Made by a program: the position numbers and the translations under genes
Part shown: positions 6,094 to 61,997 of the stretch, piece after piece
How positions within the stretch are numbered: the first letter of the stretch is position 1
Layout of the letters: the number at the start of each line of letters is the position of its first letter
Notes under the pieces: generated by a model
Told to the model about the DNA's origin: nothing
The model's database searches: none
Seen by the model: the letters and a program-made list of their open reading frames with translations, nothing else
Assembly (NCBI GenBank): GCA_014860575.1
Contig: JACZJK010000042.1
Span: 62,001-126,000, forward strand
Direction of reading: 5' to 3'
Source: Bacteroidales bacterium
GTDB lineage: Bacteria; Bacteroidota; Bacteroidia; Bacteroidales; JAAYJT01
Length of the DNA: 64,000 bases

Positions 6094-6137
6094 TTATTTT
6101 ATTTAAGATTTAAAATTCAAAATTCCAGATTCTAAAA

Positions 6138-7583: not shown

Positions 7584-7617
7584 AGCCATTGCTTCTTAAT
7601 AGAACGACTGGGATAGG

Positions 7618-7712
7618 GAAAGTGAGAAAATGGGAAGGTGAGAAGATGAGAAGATGAGAGGCGGGAGATCAGGCAGAGTATATCAAATCCAAAGACCAAA
7701 ATTCAAAAATTC
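7618..7712. repeat. Short-period low-complexity spacer tract
   Basis: The spacer upstream of pncB holds a purine tract of near-repeats of GAGAAGATGA (7618-7672), followed by drifting copies of CAAAATTCAAA (7690-7712). It has no ORF and no stable hairpin. Similar tracts with other words appear in several other spacers of the window. Confidence 0.7.
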
Positions 7713-7866
7713 AAAATTGAGCCCACTCTGAAAAGTCACAAATTGCTGATTTTTATCGTTTTTAACCCCTGACCCCTAAAGGGGAAACGCTAAAAATCAG
7801 CAATTTGTGGAAGTCCCATTTAGGGGATTTAGGGGCATATTGACTTTTCAGAGGGGACTCAAAATT
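7713..7866. mobile_element. MITE-like element, copy 2, with 6-bp target duplications
   Basis: A 142-bp element (7719-7860) is flanked by AAAATT at 7713-7718 and 7861-7866. The terminal inverted repeats are 20 bp with about 18 matches (GAGCCCACTCTGAAAAG at the left end). An inner inverted repeat, 7737-7761 against 7785-7809, matches 24 of 25, so the element could fold into a large cruciform or RNA hairpin. It aligns along its whole length with copy 1 at 748-893, apart from about four bases of indels. It is inserted inside a low-complexity CAAAATTCAAA tract, whose repetitive sequence weakens the target-duplication evidence for this copy alone. Confidence 0.82.
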
Positions 7867-8062
7867 CAAAGATCAAAGCCAAAAATCCAAAGCCCCAAAT
7901 TCCAAAATTTCAAATTCAAAAAAACTGTCGTTTGTTGATTTACGAATCTTAAATCTGGAATTTTGAATTAATAATTCCACCACTCCACTACTCCAACAAC
8001 CAACCAATTAACAAATTAACCAATCGACTATTTAACCAATCAACCATTTAACCAATTCACTC
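7867..8062. repeat. Short-period low-complexity spacer tract
   Basis: The spacer between the MITE and the butyrate kinase stop holds drifting repeats of TCAAA/CCAAA words (7867-7925), a CCACTACTCCA-like stretch near 7980-7996, and then near-repeats of TTAACCAAT (8000-8060). There is no gene and no convincing terminator. Confidence 0.7.
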
Positions 8063-15644: not shown

Positions 15645-15795
15645 GCAAGTTCAAAATTCAAAGCTCAAAGTCTAAAATTCAAAGTCTAAAGTATTAAGCT
15701 CTAACTCCTTCAAATATTGAAAAATTATTCGCAGAACAGAATTATATTATGATACCATGGTCTTCCTTTGAATTTTGAACTTTGAATTTTAGCCT
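15645..15795. repeat. Short-period TTCAAA/TTTGAA tracts in a spacer
   Basis: The 171-bp spacer between the Xaa-Pro peptidase stop and the hydrolase start has drifting copies of TTCAAAGTCTAAAA (15650-15692) and, at the other end, the complementary words TTTGAATTTTGAACTTTGAA (15767-15789). The two ends could pair as a loose hairpin. It is one of the phrase-like tracts seen throughout the window. Confidence 0.65.
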
Positions 15796-15802
15796 TTGGG
15801 CT

Positions 15803-17191
15803 TTATTTCTTCATGATCTCTTCTATCTCAGCCACGGCTTTTGGCACGGGCTTGCCAAGCAACTGATACCCATCGGCTGTGATCAGGATATCATCTTCGA
15901 TGCGAACACCACCAAAACCTTTGTATTCCTCAACTTTGTCGTAATTGATAAACCCGGTATGGAGTCCTTCGGCTTTCCATTTGTCAATGAGCGCAGGAAT
16001 GAAATAGATACCAGGTTCAACTGTCAGCACGAATCCTTCCTGCAGGCGGCGGCCAAGGCGAAGGTAGGCGGTTCCAAACTGATCGCTGGGTCTTATTTCA
16101 TCATCGTAACCTACATAAATCTGGCCGAGGTCTTCCATATCGTGCACATCCAGGCCCATCATGTGGCCAAGGCCATGAGGGAAAAACAAAGCGTGTGCTC
16201 CGGCCTTAACGGCATCTTCCATATTTCCTTTCATCAAACCGGCTTCCTTCAGGCCATTGGCGATGATCCGGCTTGCAAGCAAATGAACTTCCTTGTAAGT
16301 GATTCCCGGGCGGCAGGCTTCAATAGCTTTCACGTTGGCTTCGAGTACAATTTCATAAATGGCTTTCTGTTTGGGTGAGAATTTCCCGCTGACAGGAACT
16401 GTGCGGGTAAAGTCGCTGGTATAATCCATGAAAGTGGCTGCACCGGCGTCAATCAATAACAGATCGCCATCTTTCATCACGTTGCCATGAAAATGATTAT
16501 GCAGTGTTTCGCCCCGAACCGAAAGGATCACAGGGAAAGAAGTTCCGTTGCCTTTACTCAGGGCAATGCCTTCGATCGCACCGGCAATTTCCTGCTCAAC
16601 TAAACCCGGACGGGCCATTTTCATGGCTGTGGTATGCATCTCATATCCTGTATTGCAGGCTTTTTCAATTTCAGCAATTTCATCGGCATCTTTTACTGAG
16701 CGCTGTTTAATTATAGCTTTGACCAACTCAAGTGATGCGTAATTCTTAATTTGTGATGGATGAATGCCAAGCATTTTTTCAAGCAGCAGAATATTCTTTG
16801 CCCGGTAAGGCGGGGTAAAATGAATCTTGCGGCCTTGTTTCACCGCGTCAGCTATATATCCGGAAAGTTTAATGTAAGGTTCAGTAATGCTGACGCCAAC
16901 TTTATCTGCCTTATCGCGCATTGATTCCTGGAGTCCCATCCAGATGATGTCTTCAATATCAATATCATCGCCAAAAAGAATATCGCTGCCATTATCAATA
17001 TCAATGATGCCTGCCAGGCCGGCAAGGTTATGCCCAAAGAAATACAGGAAATTGCTATCCTGCCTGTAATGATAAGTGTTGGCCGGATAATTCATCGGGG
17101 CATCCTCGTTGCCCAAGAACAATATCAATCCGGATGATACATCTTTTTTTAGTTGGTTTCTTCTTTCGGTGTAAACGCTTTTGTTGAACAT
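15803..17191 (-). CDS. Xaa-Pro aminopeptidase family (M24B) protein, second copy
   Basis: A 462-residue M24B (pita-bread) metallopeptidase that removes an N-terminal residue preceding proline. The five metal ligands are in place: Asp in LLIDAGA, Asp in YTSDFTRT, His in HGLGHMMGLDVHD, Glu in TVEPGIYF and Glu in VRIEDDIL. The N-terminal creatinase-like domain covers residues 1-170. It lies 34 bp after a second M24B gene on the same strand and is probably co-transcribed. The two differ clearly in sequence, so they are old paralogues that may differ in substrate or location. No signal peptide is seen. Confidence 0.88.
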   Translation of the reverse strand: MFNKSVYTERRNQLKKDVSSGLILFLGNEDAPMNYPANTYHYRQDSNFLYFFGHNLAGLAGIIDIDNGSDILFGDDIDIEDIIWMGLQESMRDKADKVGVSITEPYIKLSGYIADAVKQGRKIHFTPPYRAKNILLLEKMLGIHPSQIKNYASLELVKAIIKQRSVKDADEIAEIEKACNTGYEMHTTAMKMARPGLVEQEIAGAIEGIALSKGNGTSFPVILSVRGETLHNHFHGNVMKDGDLLLIDAGAATFMDYTSDFTRTVPVSGKFSPKQKAIYEIVLEANVKAIEACRPGITYKEVHLLASRIIANGLKEAGLMKGNMEDAVKAGAHALFFPHGLGHMMGLDVHDMEDLGQIYVGYDDEIRPSDQFGTAYLRLGRRLQEGFVLTVEPGIYFIPALIDKWKAEGLHTGFINYDKVEEYKGFGGVRIEDDILITADGYQLLGKPVPKAVAEIEEIMKK

Positions 17192-30396: not shown

Positions 30397-32334
30397 TCAA
30401 ATATTAATGCTAGTCACTGCAAGGCTTTCCTGTTTCAGGTTCAAGAGCGAAAAAATGGTTTTATAAATCCCTTCGGCATCATACCCGCATTCGTGATATA
30501 GCTCTTCCACGCTGCCTTGCTCAATAAATTTATCGGGGATGCCCAGGCGGGTTACGGCAGCTTTGTAATTGTGGGCGGCCATAAATTCCAGTACTGCACT
30601 TCCCAATCCGCCAACAATGGTTCCGTCTTCAAGGGTAATAATTTGTTTGAATTTGCGGAACACTTCATGCAGGATTTCTTCATCAATGGGTTTCAGGAAA
30701 CGCATATCGTAATGCGCGATGCTGATTCCGGCAGCCAGCAGTTTTTCACGCACTTCCTGCACGTAATTCCCCACATGCCCAATGGAAATGATGGCCAGTT
30801 CGTTGCCATCACACATCCTGCGGCCCTTGCCCGGTTCAAGTATTTTAAAAGGCGTTTTCCATTGCAGCATCACGCCACGGCCTTTGGGATATCGGATCAC
30901 AAAGGGACCTGTGTTGTGTTCCTGTGCTGTAAACATAAGGTTGCGCAGTTCTTCCTCGTTCATGGGAGCCGAAATGATCATGTTTGGGATCGCACGAAAA
31001 TAAGCCAGATCGTAAGCGCCGTGGTGGGTGGCGCCGTCTTCGCCCACTAGTCCCCCACGGTCGAGGCAGAAAACCACATGCAGGTTTTGCAGCGCCACAT
31101 CATGAATCACTTGGTCGTAAGCCCGCTGCATGAAACTGGAGTAAATGTTACAGAAGGGGATCATTCCTCCGGCAGCCAACCCGGCCGAAAAAGTAACGGC
31201 GTGTTGCTCGGCGATGCCCACATCAAAAACACGCTCGGGCATTTTTGCCATCATATAAGTGAGCGAACTGCCTGTTGGCATGGCCGGGGTGATGGCTACA
31301 ATTTTATCATTCTTTTCGGCCAGTTCCAATATTGTTTTTCCGAACACAACCTGGTATTTGGGGGGTTGGTTCGCACATGGGTGTTCAATCAGTATCCCGG
31401 TTTTGCGGTCATACAAACCTGGAGCATGATAAGTGGTCTGATCCTTTTCGGCATTGGCAAAGCCCTTGCCTTTTTTAGTGATCACATGCAGCAGTTTTGG
31501 GCCGGGAATGTTTTTTAAATCGCGCAAAAGGTTGGTTAGCCGGATGATATCATGCCCGTCAACGGGGCCGAAATAGCGAAAATTAAAAGCTTCAAAAAGA
31601 TTGCTTTTCCTGAAAATGGTAGTTTTAAGGGCATTACCTATTTGTTTGACAATGGCACGGGAATTCTTGCCATAGGAACCGCGGCCACCCATCATCAGCC
31701 AGACTTTGTCTTTGAGTTTGTTATATGCCCGCGAAGTAACAATATCGGTCAGATATTCTTTTAAAGCGCCCACGTTTTTATCAATGGCGATGCCGTTGTC
31801 GTTGAGCACTACCAGCAGGTTGGTATTTGAAACGCCGGCATTGTTCAGCGCTTCCAGGGCCATTCCGCCGGTCATGGATCCATCGCCGATAATGGCAACA
31901 TGTTGGCGGCTGGGTTCTTTCAAAAAATCCGATGCAATGGCCATACCTAACGCTGCGGAAATGGAGGTGGAGGAATGTCCAGTTCCAAAAGCATCGTACT
32001 CGCTTTCGCTCATGCGTGGAAACCCGCTTATGCCTTTATATAAGCGGTTGGTATGAAACACATCGCGGCGGCCGGTGAGAATTTTGTGAGCATAAGCCTG
32101 GTGGCCAACGTCCCAGATAAGGCGATCAAACGGCGTATTGAAAACATGATGCAGGGCAACGGTAAGTTCCACTACACCAAGGCTGGCTCCCAGATGGCCC
32201 GGATTTAACGAAACCACATCAATGATATACTGCCTGAGTTCATCGCATAATGCCGGAAGCAAATCTTCAGGCAATTGCCTCAAATCTGCAGGGGTGTTGA
32301 TGGTAGCCAGCAGTTTCCCGGGTTCTGTGGTCAT
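30397..32334 (-). CDS. dxs: 1-deoxy-D-xylulose-5-phosphate synthase
   Basis: A 645-residue thiamine-diphosphate enzyme joining pyruvate and glyceraldehyde 3-phosphate, the entry to the MEP pathway. The N-terminal block SLNPGHLGASLGVVELTVALH, the ThDP site GDGSMTGGMALEALNN with the later NDN, the GIAEQHAVTFSAGLA block of the pyrimidine-binding domain and the C-terminal transketolase domain are all present. Length is normal. It is convergent with the M23-dxr-rseP operon. Its promoter is at 32369-32397 inside a low-complexity spacer. Confidence 0.96.
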   Translation of the reverse strand: MTTEPGKLLATINTPADLRQLPEDLLPALCDELRQYIIDVVSLNPGHLGASLGVVELTVALHHVFNTPFDRLIWDVGHQAYAHKILTGRRDVFHTNRLYKGISGFPRMSESEYDAFGTGHSSTSISAALGMAIASDFLKEPSRQHVAIIGDGSMTGGMALEALNNAGVSNTNLLVVLNDNGIAIDKNVGALKEYLTDIVTSRAYNKLKDKVWLMMGGRGSYGKNSRAIVKQIGNALKTTIFRKSNLFEAFNFRYFGPVDGHDIIRLTNLLRDLKNIPGPKLLHVITKKGKGFANAEKDQTTYHAPGLYDRKTGILIEHPCANQPPKYQVVFGKTILELAEKNDKIVAITPAMPTGSSLTYMMAKMPERVFDVGIAEQHAVTFSAGLAAGGMIPFCNIYSSFMQRAYDQVIHDVALQNLHVVFCLDRGGLVGEDGATHHGAYDLAYFRAIPNMIISAPMNEEELRNLMFTAQEHNTGPFVIRYPKGRGVMLQWKTPFKILEPGKGRRMCDGNELAIISIGHVGNYVQEVREKLLAAGISIAHYDMRFLKPIDEEILHEVFRKFKQIITLEDGTIVGGLGSAVLEFMAAHNYKAAVTRLGIPDKFIEQGSVEELYHECGYDAEGIYKTIFSLLNLKQESLAVTSINI

Positions 32335-32368
32335 GAGATGTTCGTTTGCTCCGTAGGATTACAGGATG

Positions 32369-32397
32369 CAAAAGTAATGTTTTTCATCAAGAGCCAA
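32369..32397 (-). promoter_or_regulatory. Bacteroidetes-type promoter for dxs
   Basis: Minus strand: TTG (complement of 32395-32397), 18 bp, then TACTTTTG (complement of 32369-32376). The dxs ATG is 34 bases downstream. The -33 box is itself part of a drifting CAAGA repeat tract. Confidence 0.5.
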
Positions 32398-32635
32398 GAA
32401 ACAAGAGACAAGAACCAAGACACAAGAACCAAGACACTAGAGACAAGAGGAGCGCAGAGCACCATGTTAAGAACCCTAAAACCAAACTAAACCTCTAAAC
32501 TCCTAAACCCTATAAACCTGGTACCACGACCTTGAACTAACAATAGAACAATTGAACAATAGAACATTCGAATTATGAACCCGGAACCTTGAACCCGGAA
32601 CGTCAAACCTCGAACGCCGAACACCGATCTCCTCA
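32385..32635. repeat. Short-period phrase-like tract between dxs and the YitT gene
   Basis: This 250-bp stretch contains near-repeats of AGACAAGAACCAAG (32390-32450), then AACCTCTAAACTCCTAAACC (32488-32515), AATAGAACAATTGAAC (32540-32570), and CCGGAACCTTGAACCCGGAA and relatives (32578-32625). Each word drifts into the next. It encodes nothing and almost fills the spacer. Confidence 0.7.
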
Positions 32636-33553
32636 ATCCGCTACTTTCTCGTCAAGCGATTTGAAGCCTTCCCCGATGATATCGTTGGCATCCATCACGG
32701 TAAGGAATGCCCGGGGGTCGGTTTTATGTATAAACTCCTCGATCATGGCCAGTTCACGGCGGTTCACAACTGTGAAGATGATTGTTTTTTCTGCGCCGTT
32801 AAACATACCTTTCCCGGAAATGAATGTGCCTCCGCGATCCAGGTCATTGATGATTTTATCACGGATGGCGTCGTATTTATCGGAAATAATAAACAGCGTT
32901 TTGTCGTAATTAACGCCCTGCATGACCACATCAATTACTTTGCCGGTAATAAATATTACGATCCAGGAATACAAAGGAATTTTCCAATCGCCAAAGGCTG
33001 CCAGGCCCACCAGAACGATCACGGAATCAACATAAATGATAAGTTGACCCACCGGCAGCCGGGTGTACTTGTTAAAGATCATAGCAACAATATCGCTGCC
33101 TCCGGAGCTGGCTTTTGATTTAAAGATCAGCCCCAGCCCGAACCCGATCAGTACTCCGCCAAAGATTGATGAAAGTAGCGCATCGTTTTCAACCAAGGGC
33201 AAATCGCCCCGCCAGTAAGTTAAGCCATCCATGAAGGCTGAGGTCAGCACAAAACCCAGCACAGTTTTAACTCCAAACTTTGGTCCCAGTACCCTGATTC
33301 CAATGATTGTGAGTGGAATATTTAGAATCAGCCCCATTAAACCAATAGGAAATCCATCCGGAGCAAAGGAAAACATTCCCTTGGTCATAAAATGGATCAC
33401 AATAGAGATCCCATACACACCTCCGGGAACAATCCTGTAGGGAGTGATAAAAAATACGAATCCCGCTGCAAGTATAAAGGACCCAATGACGATCAATCCA
33501 TAATTGATCAGCCAACGCCTGGAAAAGGGTTTTTCCTGTGAAATAAAGGACAT
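32633..33553 (-). CDS. YitT family membrane protein (DUF161 plus DUF2179)
   Basis: A 306-residue inner-membrane protein. About five or six hydrophobic helices make up residues 14-205, with the family pattern GSFILAAGFVFFITPYRIVPGG and SKASSGGSDIVAMI. The last 80 residues are the soluble DUF2179 domain (FTVVNRRELAMIEEFIHKTDP). The family is widespread; its role is not settled. A TAATTTTG -7-like box is at 33594-33601. The gene stands alone, divergent from porP. Confidence 0.85.
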   Translation of the reverse strand: MSFISQEKPFSRRWLINYGLIVIGSFILAAGFVFFITPYRIVPGGVYGISIVIHFMTKGMFSFAPDGFPIGLMGLILNIPLTIIGIRVLGPKFGVKTVLGFVLTSAFMDGLTYWRGDLPLVENDALLSSIFGGVLIGFGLGLIFKSKASSGGSDIVAMIFNKYTRLPVGQLIIYVDSVIVLVGLAAFGDWKIPLYSWIVIFITGKVIDVVMQGVNYDKTLFIISDKYDAIRDKIINDLDRGGTFISGKGMFNGAEKTIIFTVVNRRELAMIEEFIHKTDPRAFLTVMDANDIIGEGFKSLDEKVAD

Positions 33554-46379: not shown

Positions 46380-46460
46380 AACAGGAATTAAACAAGCCAT
46401 CCTCCTACTGCCTGCCTCCTACCTACCGACTTCTGACTTCCGACTTCGGACTTTCGATCC
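46380..46460. repeat. Short-period phrase-like tract
   Basis: Near-repeats of CTGCCTCCTACC (46400-46425) pass into near-repeats of CGACTTCTGACTTC (46427-46457). No gene or hairpin. A similar CAAGCCCCAAGCTCCAAGC stretch lies at 45553-45571 near the ABC gene's other end. Confidence 0.6.
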
Positions 46461-59108: not shown

Positions 59109-61997
59109 TTATATTTTGATGATTTTCTTTACGATTATTTGATTTTCAGGATAGATTCTCGCAAAATATATTCCCGACGGCAATTCACTCATATCAAAAA
59201 TAATTTCTCCTTCTCCTCTTCTCCCTATCTCCTTTTCGAAAACCACCTTACCAAACAGATCAACTATTTCAACTTTGAGTTTTGAATTTTGGAATTTGGA
59301 ATTTGCGATTTGAAATTTCCCTCGTGTAGGGTTAGGAAATACCACCACGCCTCCGCACCTCCATGCCTCCATGCCTCCCTGCTCATCAACCCCTGTCGCG
59401 ATATCAACCGTCGCCACCCAGTCTTTTTCAGTCTGGCCATTACCGGAGGTCACTACATAGGTGAACGGGTAGGTGAAGTCCTGCATCATGCCGCCGGGGG
59501 GATCAACCGTTGCATCCGGGGAAAGGAAAATTTCGGGGATCAACTGGCTGACATCGGTTCCTTCCTCAACAATGACATGAACGGTTTGTGCGTCTTCATC
59601 AATTTCTGCCGGTTGCACCTGCTGGTCGACGACAAAATCGATCATATTGGCTTCTCCGGAGGGGAATCCTTCCAGCACACCGTAGCGGTATAAGGTCCCA
59701 TTGTTTCCAATGGCCCAGGCATGGTGGGCATCGGAGGCAAACACATCCGTCAGGTAACCGTCTGTCACGTGGTCGGCAAAAAAATGCACGGTATCGGCAT
59801 TTCCATTGGCACACATCAGCACATCGCCACTGCTGGTGACAGCCCAGATAGTATCAAGGCCGGATGTGAATACACCAAGGACCGATGCAAGGGTATCTTC
59901 ATAGTAGGTTTGAAGCATACCTTCTCTCAGGCGTAACATTTTCCCTCCATAGCTGATCCAGGCCTGGTTGTGTCTGTTAAACTGGATATCACCAAAGCAG
60001 GGGAAATATTGCGCTCCACCGTAAAAAGTCCAGGTGTCATTGTCATAGATCATTTTCCGGCCAAAGCATCCTGTGGTCCATCCATAATCGTTGGAGCCAA
60101 AGGCGATACCGTCCCAGTCGGTATAGGTGCCGCTGTTTTGTGGTACAAGGCCTGTTTCGGTAATTTCAGCAATCCAGCCTTCCACGCAGCCACACCAGCC
60201 CATCGATCCATCGGGTGAAAAACCTATGCTCAGGATCTGGCCGGGCGACAAGCCAAAGAAATTCCAGTTCTGACCTCCATCGGTCGTTTTGCAGAGCAAT
60301 CCGCTTTCTCCGCCGGCATAGCCTGTTTCGGAGGACAACATGTAAATGGCATGGTTCGCACCCAATGTTGTCTGTACATCCCAGGTTTCCCCACCATCCG
60401 CAGTGTGGTAGATTTCATTATAAAAGCAGCTATTAGTGATCCAGCCTTCGTTGCCGATGAACCAGAGGCTGGAGAGACAGCCTCCGGCTGCACCTCCTAC
60501 AGGAAAGAGGTTCTCGCTGATATCCACCCAGCCATAAGCCCGCGTGTAAGAGGCATCGAAGTCACAGGTGGAGGTGCTGTTGTTCAGGTCGACGCTGTAA
60601 CTTAACGGATCGAAGCGCGCGTATTTATGGGTAGGGGTGACAGTATAATTCCCATCCGGGAGATGGTTGAATTCATACTCCCCGTTAAGGTTGGCTCGGA
60701 TAAAGCTGCTGATGGGTCCGCTCAGGTAAACCTCGGCGTGGGGATAGGGATTGCTGTCAAGTGTTATGGTTCCATTGATGGAAGAAGTGGGCAGGGGGGT
60801 GTTGTCGGTCCGCACGGGCCAGACATGCCAGTCGGCCGTTTTCAAATACTGCAGCCGGTTGCCGCCTCCCATCATGCCATCGGTAAACCATACGATCCAG
60901 GCCTGGTCGGTTTCATCCGCGCGTGTCGTGGAGGTCCAGTAAGAAAGATCGAAGTTGAACCCCATGAGATTGGTAAACGGGTACTGTTCAGGCATCGCTG
61001 GATTATTCCGGCTCATGTCCACCAGGCTGGTCATCTCATTACGGTTGGGCATGCGCCAGTCGCTATGGCCCAGGTAGTTCTCCGAGTTCAACAGGGCGAT
61101 GTAGTCCAGGGCATGCTGCCAGTTGATGGCCCCGTCGACCCATTGGTTGGTGTCGAATTCCGGGTCGCGGGTGAGCATCAGGTTGGCGTCCTTGGTCCAC
61201 ATCAGCCCGGTAAGGCGGTCGGTGACGGTGCCGTTGTTGTTGTCGACGAGCCGTGGTGTGGGCCATTCGGTCCCTTCCGCCAGGAAACCATCATCCCCCG
61301 GATAGAATGTGTAACGCTGGCCGGTGGCCGGGTTTTGCACCGACCCCGGATTTCCGCTGTCACGGACAGGAAGAAGGTAGTATTTCCAATTCGTGCCGCC
61401 GCTAATCTCAGGATCTTTTGCAAAATCCTCCGTTTCTCCGGCGGGGTTGATGATGTTGGAATGGGCGTAATGCTCCTGTAGCAGGACAGTGATGGCCAGG
61501 CTGCGCATTTGCTCCGAAGTGGTGGATGACCAGTAAACGTCTTTCAGGTTGATAAACGGATGATCCGGTGGCAGGGCAATGTCCGGATATCCAAGGTTGA
61601 CCAGGGATTTCATTTCCACCATATTGGGCATGCGCCAGTCGTTGTGCCCCAGGTAATTTTCACTGTTGAGTAGTTCCATATAATCCAGTGCCGTTTTCCA
61701 ATCGATATCACCATCCCCCGGCGTCCGGTCCTGATCGAAGTCCGGGTTACGGGTGGCGATGAGGTTGGCGTCCTTTGTCCACATCAACCCGGTGAATGAA
61801 TCGGTTACCGAACCATCGCCATTATCGGTGAAGCGGTTGTCAGGGATGGGTACTCCCATCTGTAGGTCGCCGTCGTCACCGGGGTAATAGCTGGTGTTCT
61901 GGCCGGTGGCGGGGAGCTGAATGATGCCCTGCTGACTATGAGCGTAGGGCATAGAGAATAGGGCTAAGAGCAGAAGGAGGATGTAGGGTTTTTTCAT
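59109..61997 (-). CDS. Large secreted DUF1566/Ycf48-like protein with T9SS sorting tail
   Basis: A 962-residue cargo protein: signal peptide (KKPYILLLLLALFSMPYAHS), two tandem DUF1566/Lcl-type modules (residues about 40-215 and 225-405; repeated blocks TGLMWTKDANL, LNSENYLGHNDWRMPN and LNSENYLGHSDWRMPN), a carboxypeptidase-regulatory-like beta domain (about 410-485), a Ycf48-like beta-propeller (about 490-780; TADGGETWDVQTTLGANH, TTDGGQNWNFFG), a further beta domain and the type A sorting tail (VVVFPNPTRGKFQI ... GIYFARIYPENQIIVKKIIKI). Function unknown; surface binding is likely. The DUF1566/propeller part is markedly GC-richer than its neighbours. The tail linker holds a drifting repeat, IANSKFQNSKLK. 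Confidence 0.82.
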   Translation of the reverse strand: MKKPYILLLLLALFSMPYAHSQQGIIQLPATGQNTSYYPGDDGDLQMGVPIPDNRFTDNGDGSVTDSFTGLMWTKDANLIATRNPDFDQDRTPGDGDIDWKTALDYMELLNSENYLGHNDWRMPNMVEMKSLVNLGYPDIALPPDHPFINLKDVYWSSTTSEQMRSLAITVLLQEHYAHSNIINPAGETEDFAKDPEISGGTNWKYYLLPVRDSGNPGSVQNPATGQRYTFYPGDDGFLAEGTEWPTPRLVDNNNGTVTDRLTGLMWTKDANLMLTRDPEFDTNQWVDGAINWQHALDYIALLNSENYLGHSDWRMPNRNEMTSLVDMSRNNPAMPEQYPFTNLMGFNFDLSYWTSTTRADETDQAWIVWFTDGMMGGGNRLQYLKTADWHVWPVRTDNTPLPTSSINGTITLDSNPYPHAEVYLSGPISSFIRANLNGEYEFNHLPDGNYTVTPTHKYARFDPLSYSVDLNNSTSTCDFDASYTRAYGWVDISENLFPVGGAAGGCLSSLWFIGNEGWITNSCFYNEIYHTADGGETWDVQTTLGANHAIYMLSSETGYAGGESGLLCKTTDGGQNWNFFGLSPGQILSIGFSPDGSMGWCGCVEGWIAEITETGLVPQNSGTYTDWDGIAFGSNDYGWTTGCFGRKMIYDNDTWTFYGGAQYFPCFGDIQFNRHNQAWISYGGKMLRLREGMLQTYYEDTLASVLGVFTSGLDTIWAVTSSGDVLMCANGNADTVHFFADHVTDGYLTDVFASDAHHAWAIGNNGTLYRYGVLEGFPSGEANMIDFVVDQQVQPAEIDEDAQTVHVIVEEGTDVSQLIPEIFLSPDATVDPPGGMMQDFTYPFTYVVTSGNGQTEKDWVATVDIATGVDEQGGMEAWRCGGVVVFPNPTRGKFQIANSKFQNSKLKVEIVDLFGKVVFEKEIGRRGEGEIIFDMSELPSGIYFARIYPENQIIVKKIIKI

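Follow-up and report, generated by a model that had tools for sequence, protein, structure and literature searches.

A spacer filled with short words that are repeated with small changes, each run giving way to another word, separates dxs (30397-32334, minus strand), upstream of which it lies, from the YitT/DUF2179 gene whose downstream end it adjoins (32633-33553, minus strand). Do such tracts form one class of sequence, and how are they written? An earlier note on this DNA had described similar phrases in many spacers, knew no accepted name for them, and proposed a shared generating process or copying between sites rather than random drift. The window, which is the whole stretch of 64,000 nucleotides under analysis (G000:C42:62001-126000), belongs to a Bacteroidales assembly of 4.4 Mb in 66 contigs (G000), and its dxs protein finds its best matches in Bacteroidetes MAGs (71% identity). 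A self-match scan divides the focal spacer into four tracts in succession, with a short non-repetitive leader after the first (Table 1).

The tracts of G000 are more than chance. Scoring self-matches (match +1, mismatch -1.5) at lags of 3-30 bases against a null of dinucleotide-preserving block shuffles, we found tracts in the window at lags 7, 8, 14, 16, 21 and 28 only, and about zero per lag in the shuffles. The wider sample of 61 G000 stretches (1.264 Mb), some of them picked for BLAST matches so that absolute density is slightly inflated, gave a lag spectrum of the same shape as that of the unselected window: 123 tracts at lag 7, 110 at lag 8, 16 at lag 9, 84 at lag 14 and 68 at lag 16, against 0-2 in the shuffles, with 0, 0, 12, 1, 4, 6 and 3 at lags 4, 5, 6, 10, 11, 12 and 13 respectively. 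Units of eight bases are as common as units of seven, and the tracts are mainly intergenic (108 of the 123 at lag 7 and 98 of the 110 at lag 8), intergenic DNA making up about 11% of the sampled sequence. The core of the earlier observation is confirmed by these comparisons with shuffled sequence, imperfect word tracts being present in spacers at 6.1, 7.6, 7.7-7.9, 8.0, 15.65-15.80 and 46.4 kb as well as in the focal spacer. Two of the words that it had listed, CACAGAG (59.0 kb) and CGGATTT (30.1 and 62.0 kb), proved to be just 2-3 loose copies each, below threshold, and its unit size of 7-14 bases narrows in the window to periods that are all 7, 8 or multiples of these, with 9-mers occurring in the wider genome.

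Table 1. Word tracts and composite repeat elements located in the window (positions are those of the window).
Feature	Position	Strand	Remarks
Focal spacer	32335..32632	.	Nearly all filled by a type A composite element; A/C-rich strand is +
CAAGAGA/CAAGAAC heptamer tract, ~9 units	32388..32449	+	Lags 7, 14, 21, 28
Segment common to focal spacer and a spacer in G000:C52 (opposite strand)	32447..32572	+	78%
CTAAACCT / CTCTAAACC tract, 8-9-mers	32487..32519	+	
AACAATAG octamer tract, then conserved junction ATTCGAATTATGAACC	32539..32572	+	
CCGGAACCTTGAAC (CCGGAAC/CTTGAAC) heptamer tract	32576..32622	+	Lag 14
ATTCAAA heptamer tract	6101..6132	+	
TTCTCATC-class octamer tract (GAGAAGAT on +)	7616..7659	-	
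CCCAAAG/TTCAAAA tract, part of type B composite	7875..7914	+	
Type B non-tandem conserved core (GCTGTCGTTTGTTGATTTACGAATCTTAAATCTTGAATTTTGAATTAATAATT)	7918..7979	+	97% identity with two other copies
ACTCCATY, then AACCAATT octamer tracts; 3' part of type B composite	7976..8060	+	
TTCAAAA/TTCAAAG heptamer tract, left arm of inverted pair	15647..15692	+	Inverted score 21
TTTGAATTTTGAAC tract, right arm of inverted pair	15767..15790	-	Inverted score 16
CCGACTTCTGACTT heptamer tract	46401..46457	+	

Some neighbouring features differ from these. A MITE-like fold-back element of about 130 bp (CTGAAAAGTCACAAATTGCTGATTTTTATCG...CAATTTGTGGAAGTCCC...TTGACTTTTCAGAG; window 7728-7860 and 761-892) is dispersed, with 33 BLAST matches in the G000 sample, and often directly adjoins a tract. 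At 59267-59382, tracts of TTTGAAT and CCTCCATG lie inside a called 962-aa ORF (59109-61997, minus strand), near its stop; perhaps the ORF reads through the tract into the spacer. Elsewhere in the genome, the final 5 kb of one contig (G000:C16:359849-364495) is almost wholly made of heptamer and octamer tracts that are nested and recur in several copies, and a stretch of ATATCGT/ACGATA fold-back units with a 28-base period, unlike the other tracts, runs over a gene end (stretch L123, 7402-7476).

Within tracts of period 7, unit identity is 0.78 for adjacent units and declines steadily to about 0.55 at a separation of nine; at period 8 it declines from 0.77 to 0.39 at a separation of ten. That neighbouring units are most alike, with similarity decaying over distance, points to local duplication followed by mutation, probably by slippage or unequal exchange of units. 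Methyl-directed mismatch repair is in general less efficient for loops larger than about 3 bases (PMC4060949), and units of 7-8 bases would therefore escape correction. It is conceivable, if unlikely, that slippage is the whole story, the tracts being STRR-like 7/8-mer repeats that arise in place and share words through base composition or slippage preference only. The 7-8-base period, the intergenic location and the decay of unit similarity all fit such an origin, heptamer SSR enrichment is known in some bacteria (PMC4692102, PMC4679880), and unrelated plasmids hold perfect arrays of the same words. Those plasmid matches, however, stem from a search for these very words, and the words are lineage-specific, so that no universal preference is at work; moreover, an order of several words, long shared non-tandem cores, a shared leader and 31-base sentences found in exact form at dozens of loci all need copying.

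The word order in question involves about 10 word classes, which recur across unrelated G000 spacers in a fixed sequence on one strand. Along the A/C-rich strand the leading class is that of the CCCAAGA-type heptamers, followed by TTCAAAA with a core, ACTCCATY, AACCAATT and finally ACTGCATC. Class 8a preceded class 8c by 25:1, and class 7P preceded 8a by 18:1, 8b by 15:0 and 8c by 12:0. Over the 77 spacers with at least two word classes, the order statistic was 136, against a mean of 57 (sd 8.3, maximum 98 of 2000 permutations) when words were permuted within spacers. This fixed order, together with the shared non-tandem cores, indicates that the words belong to larger dispersed units that are copied between sites, although copies sharing the order are sometimes just 73-80% alike, so that selection on position could account for part of it.

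Searched against its own genome, the focal spacer gave 62 matches at E <= 0.01, of which the best non-self match (3e-20) was the G000:C52 spacer. The segment common to these two spacers takes in the non-tandem leader GAGGAGCGCAGAGCACC...AAGAACCC and was, on that ground, copied as a unit. The focal mid-segment has 23 matches in the sampled part of G000, and the type B core, which is unrelated to it, has 16, up to 97-100% identical; in the whole genome ACTGCATCACTGCATCAC and AACCTTGAACCTTGAACC occur in 12 and 13 copies, their reversed controls in none. The same words do, then, recur in unrelated spacers as the earlier note had claimed, and its view of the tracts as one class agrees with their common 7-8-base period, their mostly intergenic position and their common lineage-specific dictionary. 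Its preference for a shared process or copying over drift stands in the first part, given the fixed order and the shared cores, but not in the second, since the decay in unit similarity shows drift as well.

We consider it probable that the tracts are dispersed, non-coding families of composite intergenic repeats that are copied between spacers, eroded and expanded by unit slippage, and tolerated. Each family would be an oriented ‘sentence’ of tandem blocks of 7-, 8- or 9-base units, set in fixed order and linked by short non-repetitive cores. The pattern shows that complete sentences, or sizeable portions, have been copied between the spacers of one genome, by some enzyme or recombination route; within a block, units of 7-8 bases would be locally duplicated or deleted, through replication slippage or unequal exchange, and would then mutate, giving the drift of words.

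Tracts cover 7.2% of intergenic bases in G000 versus 0.24% in its congener G001, and the orthologous dxs spacers of congeners G001 and G002 hold no tract, the G002 sample being of limited size and in part selected through a match. We read the load in G000 as a lineage-specific burst. What speaks against the preferred reading is that G000 yielded neither a target-site duplication nor a transposase partner or an empty site, the congener spacers being too distant to align. Among 149 genomes of the order, tandems of ACTGCATC were found in 1 and tandems of GAACCTT in 6, and a search with the whole sentence returned weak partial matches in 16, its own genome included. Tracts of this kind, made of different words, are present in other Bacteroidota. 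A universal vocabulary was rejected: 7-mers from elsewhere resemble the G000 dictionary no more than letter-shuffled words do (152/300), and 8-mers just slightly more than shuffled letters do (8/300). On these sequence comparisons, the tract class is widespread and its dictionary local.

Perfect arrays of G000 words (ACTGCATC, ACAGCATC, AACCAAG) turned up in unrelated Proteobacteria, namely on an E. albertii plasmid, an E. coli IncX1 plasmid and an Acinetobacter plasmid and in Caballeronia. We rejected a plasmid origin of the words, as these are perfect single-word arrays obtained by a word-specific search, which gives no sign of transfer and may have returned coincidences.

A closer comparison comes from two sister species, Mucilaginibacter sp. 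SG564 (G150) and OK268 (G151), over about 200 kb of synteny with genes 88% identical. A tract was present in at least one species in 21 of 50 orthologous spacers and in both in 6 of 50, raw counts that overstate turnover, since in some spacers scored for one species alone the other has a homologous tract that falls just short of the threshold. The related form in both species is a hairpin with heptamer arms, and in several orthologous spacers the hairpins of the two species coincide in position but differ in the words of either arm (AGTATCAAGTAGCTAGTATCAAG versus AGAGTTAAGAACCAAGAGTCAAG between conserved flanks at A@61869, for instance). One orthologous hairpin pair sits in the divergent spacer upstream of dxs, and at the 3' end of dxs both species have stems of about 30 bp whose sequences are unlike. 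With up to 2 mismatches, the 31-base heptameric arm sentence AGTATCAAGTAGNNAGTATCAAGTATCAAGA is matched about 159 times in G150 and 64 times in G151 (reversed controls, 4 and 0), and not at all in G000.

In 26 of 43 paired copies (a few overlapping pairs being counted twice) the two arms of these hairpins carried matching bases at their variable NN positions, against 15.4 +/- 2.8 and a maximum of 24 in 5000 shuffles, and their inner ends are polar, with CACGA on one arm and CAAGA on the other. Such concordance and polarity indicate copies of oriented hairpin elements in which the arm sequence is kept paired. The loops, of 17-129 bases, are mostly unlike, with weak similarity at their ends. Inside some of them we observed CGTCATTGCGAGG...GAAGCAATC units, like the CGTC REP (PMC3733652), and GTCATGCCGAACTTGTTTCGGCATC units (stretch L052, ~16440-16550; the G151 C12 orthologue of A@40791). 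As a general architecture, hairpin arms hold for Mucilaginibacter, where 83% of the tracts in a small set (10/12) have a nearby inverted partner, and fail in G000, where 3% do; the two architectures are related by unit type, which does not imply one family.

Between the sister species both presence/absence and replacement of elements are seen, with no target duplication discerned. Replacement might reflect concerted rewriting in place, that is, a dedicated or semi-dedicated process by which the two arms of an element already present receive new short words. Orthologous spacers would on this reading switch words (for example, TATCAAG to AGTCAAG) in every unit of both arms with no change in position, frame or complementarity, possibly through template switching or through conversion by copies elsewhere, instead of loss and re-insertion. 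We hold this suggestion to be rather doubtful.

Mobilization of REP-like or MITE-like elements in trans, whether the transposase is of the Y1 (RAYT) type or another, would suit the oriented, palindromic and dispersed elements of Mucilaginibacter and the MITE-like fold-back family (33 matches) beside some G000 tracts, and Y1 transposases are present in most of the genomes. We nevertheless find it very improbable: stems of about 31 bp and loops of 17-129 bases misfit the GTAG/CGTC REPs (stems 5-13 bp, loops 2-20 bp; PMC3733652), and the G000 composites are mostly non-palindromic, with inverted arms in 3%. Few Y1 transposases were found (G000, 1 partial match; G150, 1; G151, 3). RAYT mobilization in particular was rejected on the absence of heptamer arms flanking either of the two Y1 genes inspected, one each in G150 and G151, within 3.3 kb around the gene.

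Dispersed composite repeats, our preferred reading, would persist where they do least harm, in convergent more than in co-directional and in co-directional more than in divergent spacers, and mainly at gene 3' ends. On simple longest-ORF gene calls, in which individual assignments may be wrong, tracts occur in 24 of 74 convergent (32%), 87 of 407 co-directional (21%) and 10 of 106 divergent spacers (9%; convergent versus divergent, p = 2e-4). The A/C-rich strand is sense in 83 co-directional spacers and antisense in 48 (p = 0.003). Composites of both orientations can lie within a few kb of one another (stretch L129), which makes an explanation by replication strand less likely.

Placement and strand also bear on a function at the RNA level, in which the C-rich, G-poor words would act on the transcript as Rho-utilization or other protein-binding sites and the hairpins as terminators. 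We judge this improbable, although tracts avoid divergent spacers, their sense strand, which is the A/C-rich one in those 83 of 131 co-directional spacers, has more C than G (0.24 vs 0.15), and the Mucilaginibacter hairpins keep their position while their words change, as do the unlike stems at the 3' end of dxs in both species. The orientation is opposite in 37% of spacers, including every co-directional one in the window; the congeners are nearly without tracts; the orthologous hairpin pair upstream of dxs sits between divergent genes; no Rfam family matched in the window; and dispersal would be left unexplained. A secondary role of the inverted forms of Mucilaginibacter as putative hairpin terminators is plausible. 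The composite repeats themselves are most likely tolerated, selfish or neutral DNA, with the qualification that the sense bias of 83:48 counts against a purely inert element, which need show no such bias.

Matches crowd at contig ends: of the 48 that were placed, 7 are no more than 500 bp from one (0.5 expected). Taken in isolation, this might suggest an artefact of metagenome assembly with mis-joined repeats, an explanation to which we give next to no credence, for repeats are expected to end contigs anyway, and the same kind of tract lies inside long contigs and in the named-strain (non-MAG) genomes of Mucilaginibacter. We take the excess to mean that the assembly is broken up by the repeats.

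Spacer sequence of this type tends to be dismissed as low-complexity noise; in G000 it accounts for about 7% of the non-coding DNA and follows a grammar that can be measured, and its load varies about thirty-fold between congeners. A vague impression has thereby become a set of countable objects (word classes, order, cores), and the tracts are a natural setting in which to ask how 7-8-base units come to be copied and why this length should be favoured, with word replacement between sister species making the speed of the process directly measurable.

As to the name said to be lacking, heptameric intergenic repeats are already known, as STRRs, as the TAACTGA repeats (PMC4679880) and as the GGGNATC repeats (PMC4692102). 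TAACTGA direct repeats occur in Beggiatoaceae, cyanobacteria and some Bacteroidetes, and in Elizabethkingia bigger assemblages of heptamer repeats, with contigs breaking at the repeats, have already been seen (PMC4679880). The tracts of G000 resemble these repeats and the STRRs of cyanobacteria in their heptamers, intergenic position, lineage-specific abundance, mixed heptamers within a spacer and contig breaks (PMC4679880). They differ in having units of 7, 8 and 9 bases together in degenerate arrays, and about 10 word classes in fixed order with common non-tandem cores; where STRRs are one or a few exact words per genome in independently formed arrays, G000 has many drifting, ordered words. 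A partial literature search found no description of fixed multi-word order, mixed 7/8/9 units or word replacement between sister species.

With the GGGNATC repeats of Xanthomonas and Nostoc (PMC4692102) the G000 tracts share a period of 7, dispersal, a mostly non-coding location and avoidance of divergent spacers; unlike those G-tract quadruplex formers, their words are A/C-rich and stand in ordered multi-word composites. The Mucilaginibacter form is dispersed, oriented, palindromic and intergenic like GTAG/CGTC REPs (PMC3733652) and MITEs, but its heptamer stems of about 31 bp enclose unrelated, variable loops and come without a terminal GTAG/CGTC tag or an adjoining transposase. The tandem repeats of Borgs (PMC9879509) are likewise fast-evolving, A-enriched and partly intergenic; they are described there as arising independently, whereas G000 sentences recur across the spacers of one chromosome. 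The nearest kin of the G000 tracts are the heptamer repeats of PMC4679880 and PMC4692102, and the tracts are a variation on STRR-like DNA.
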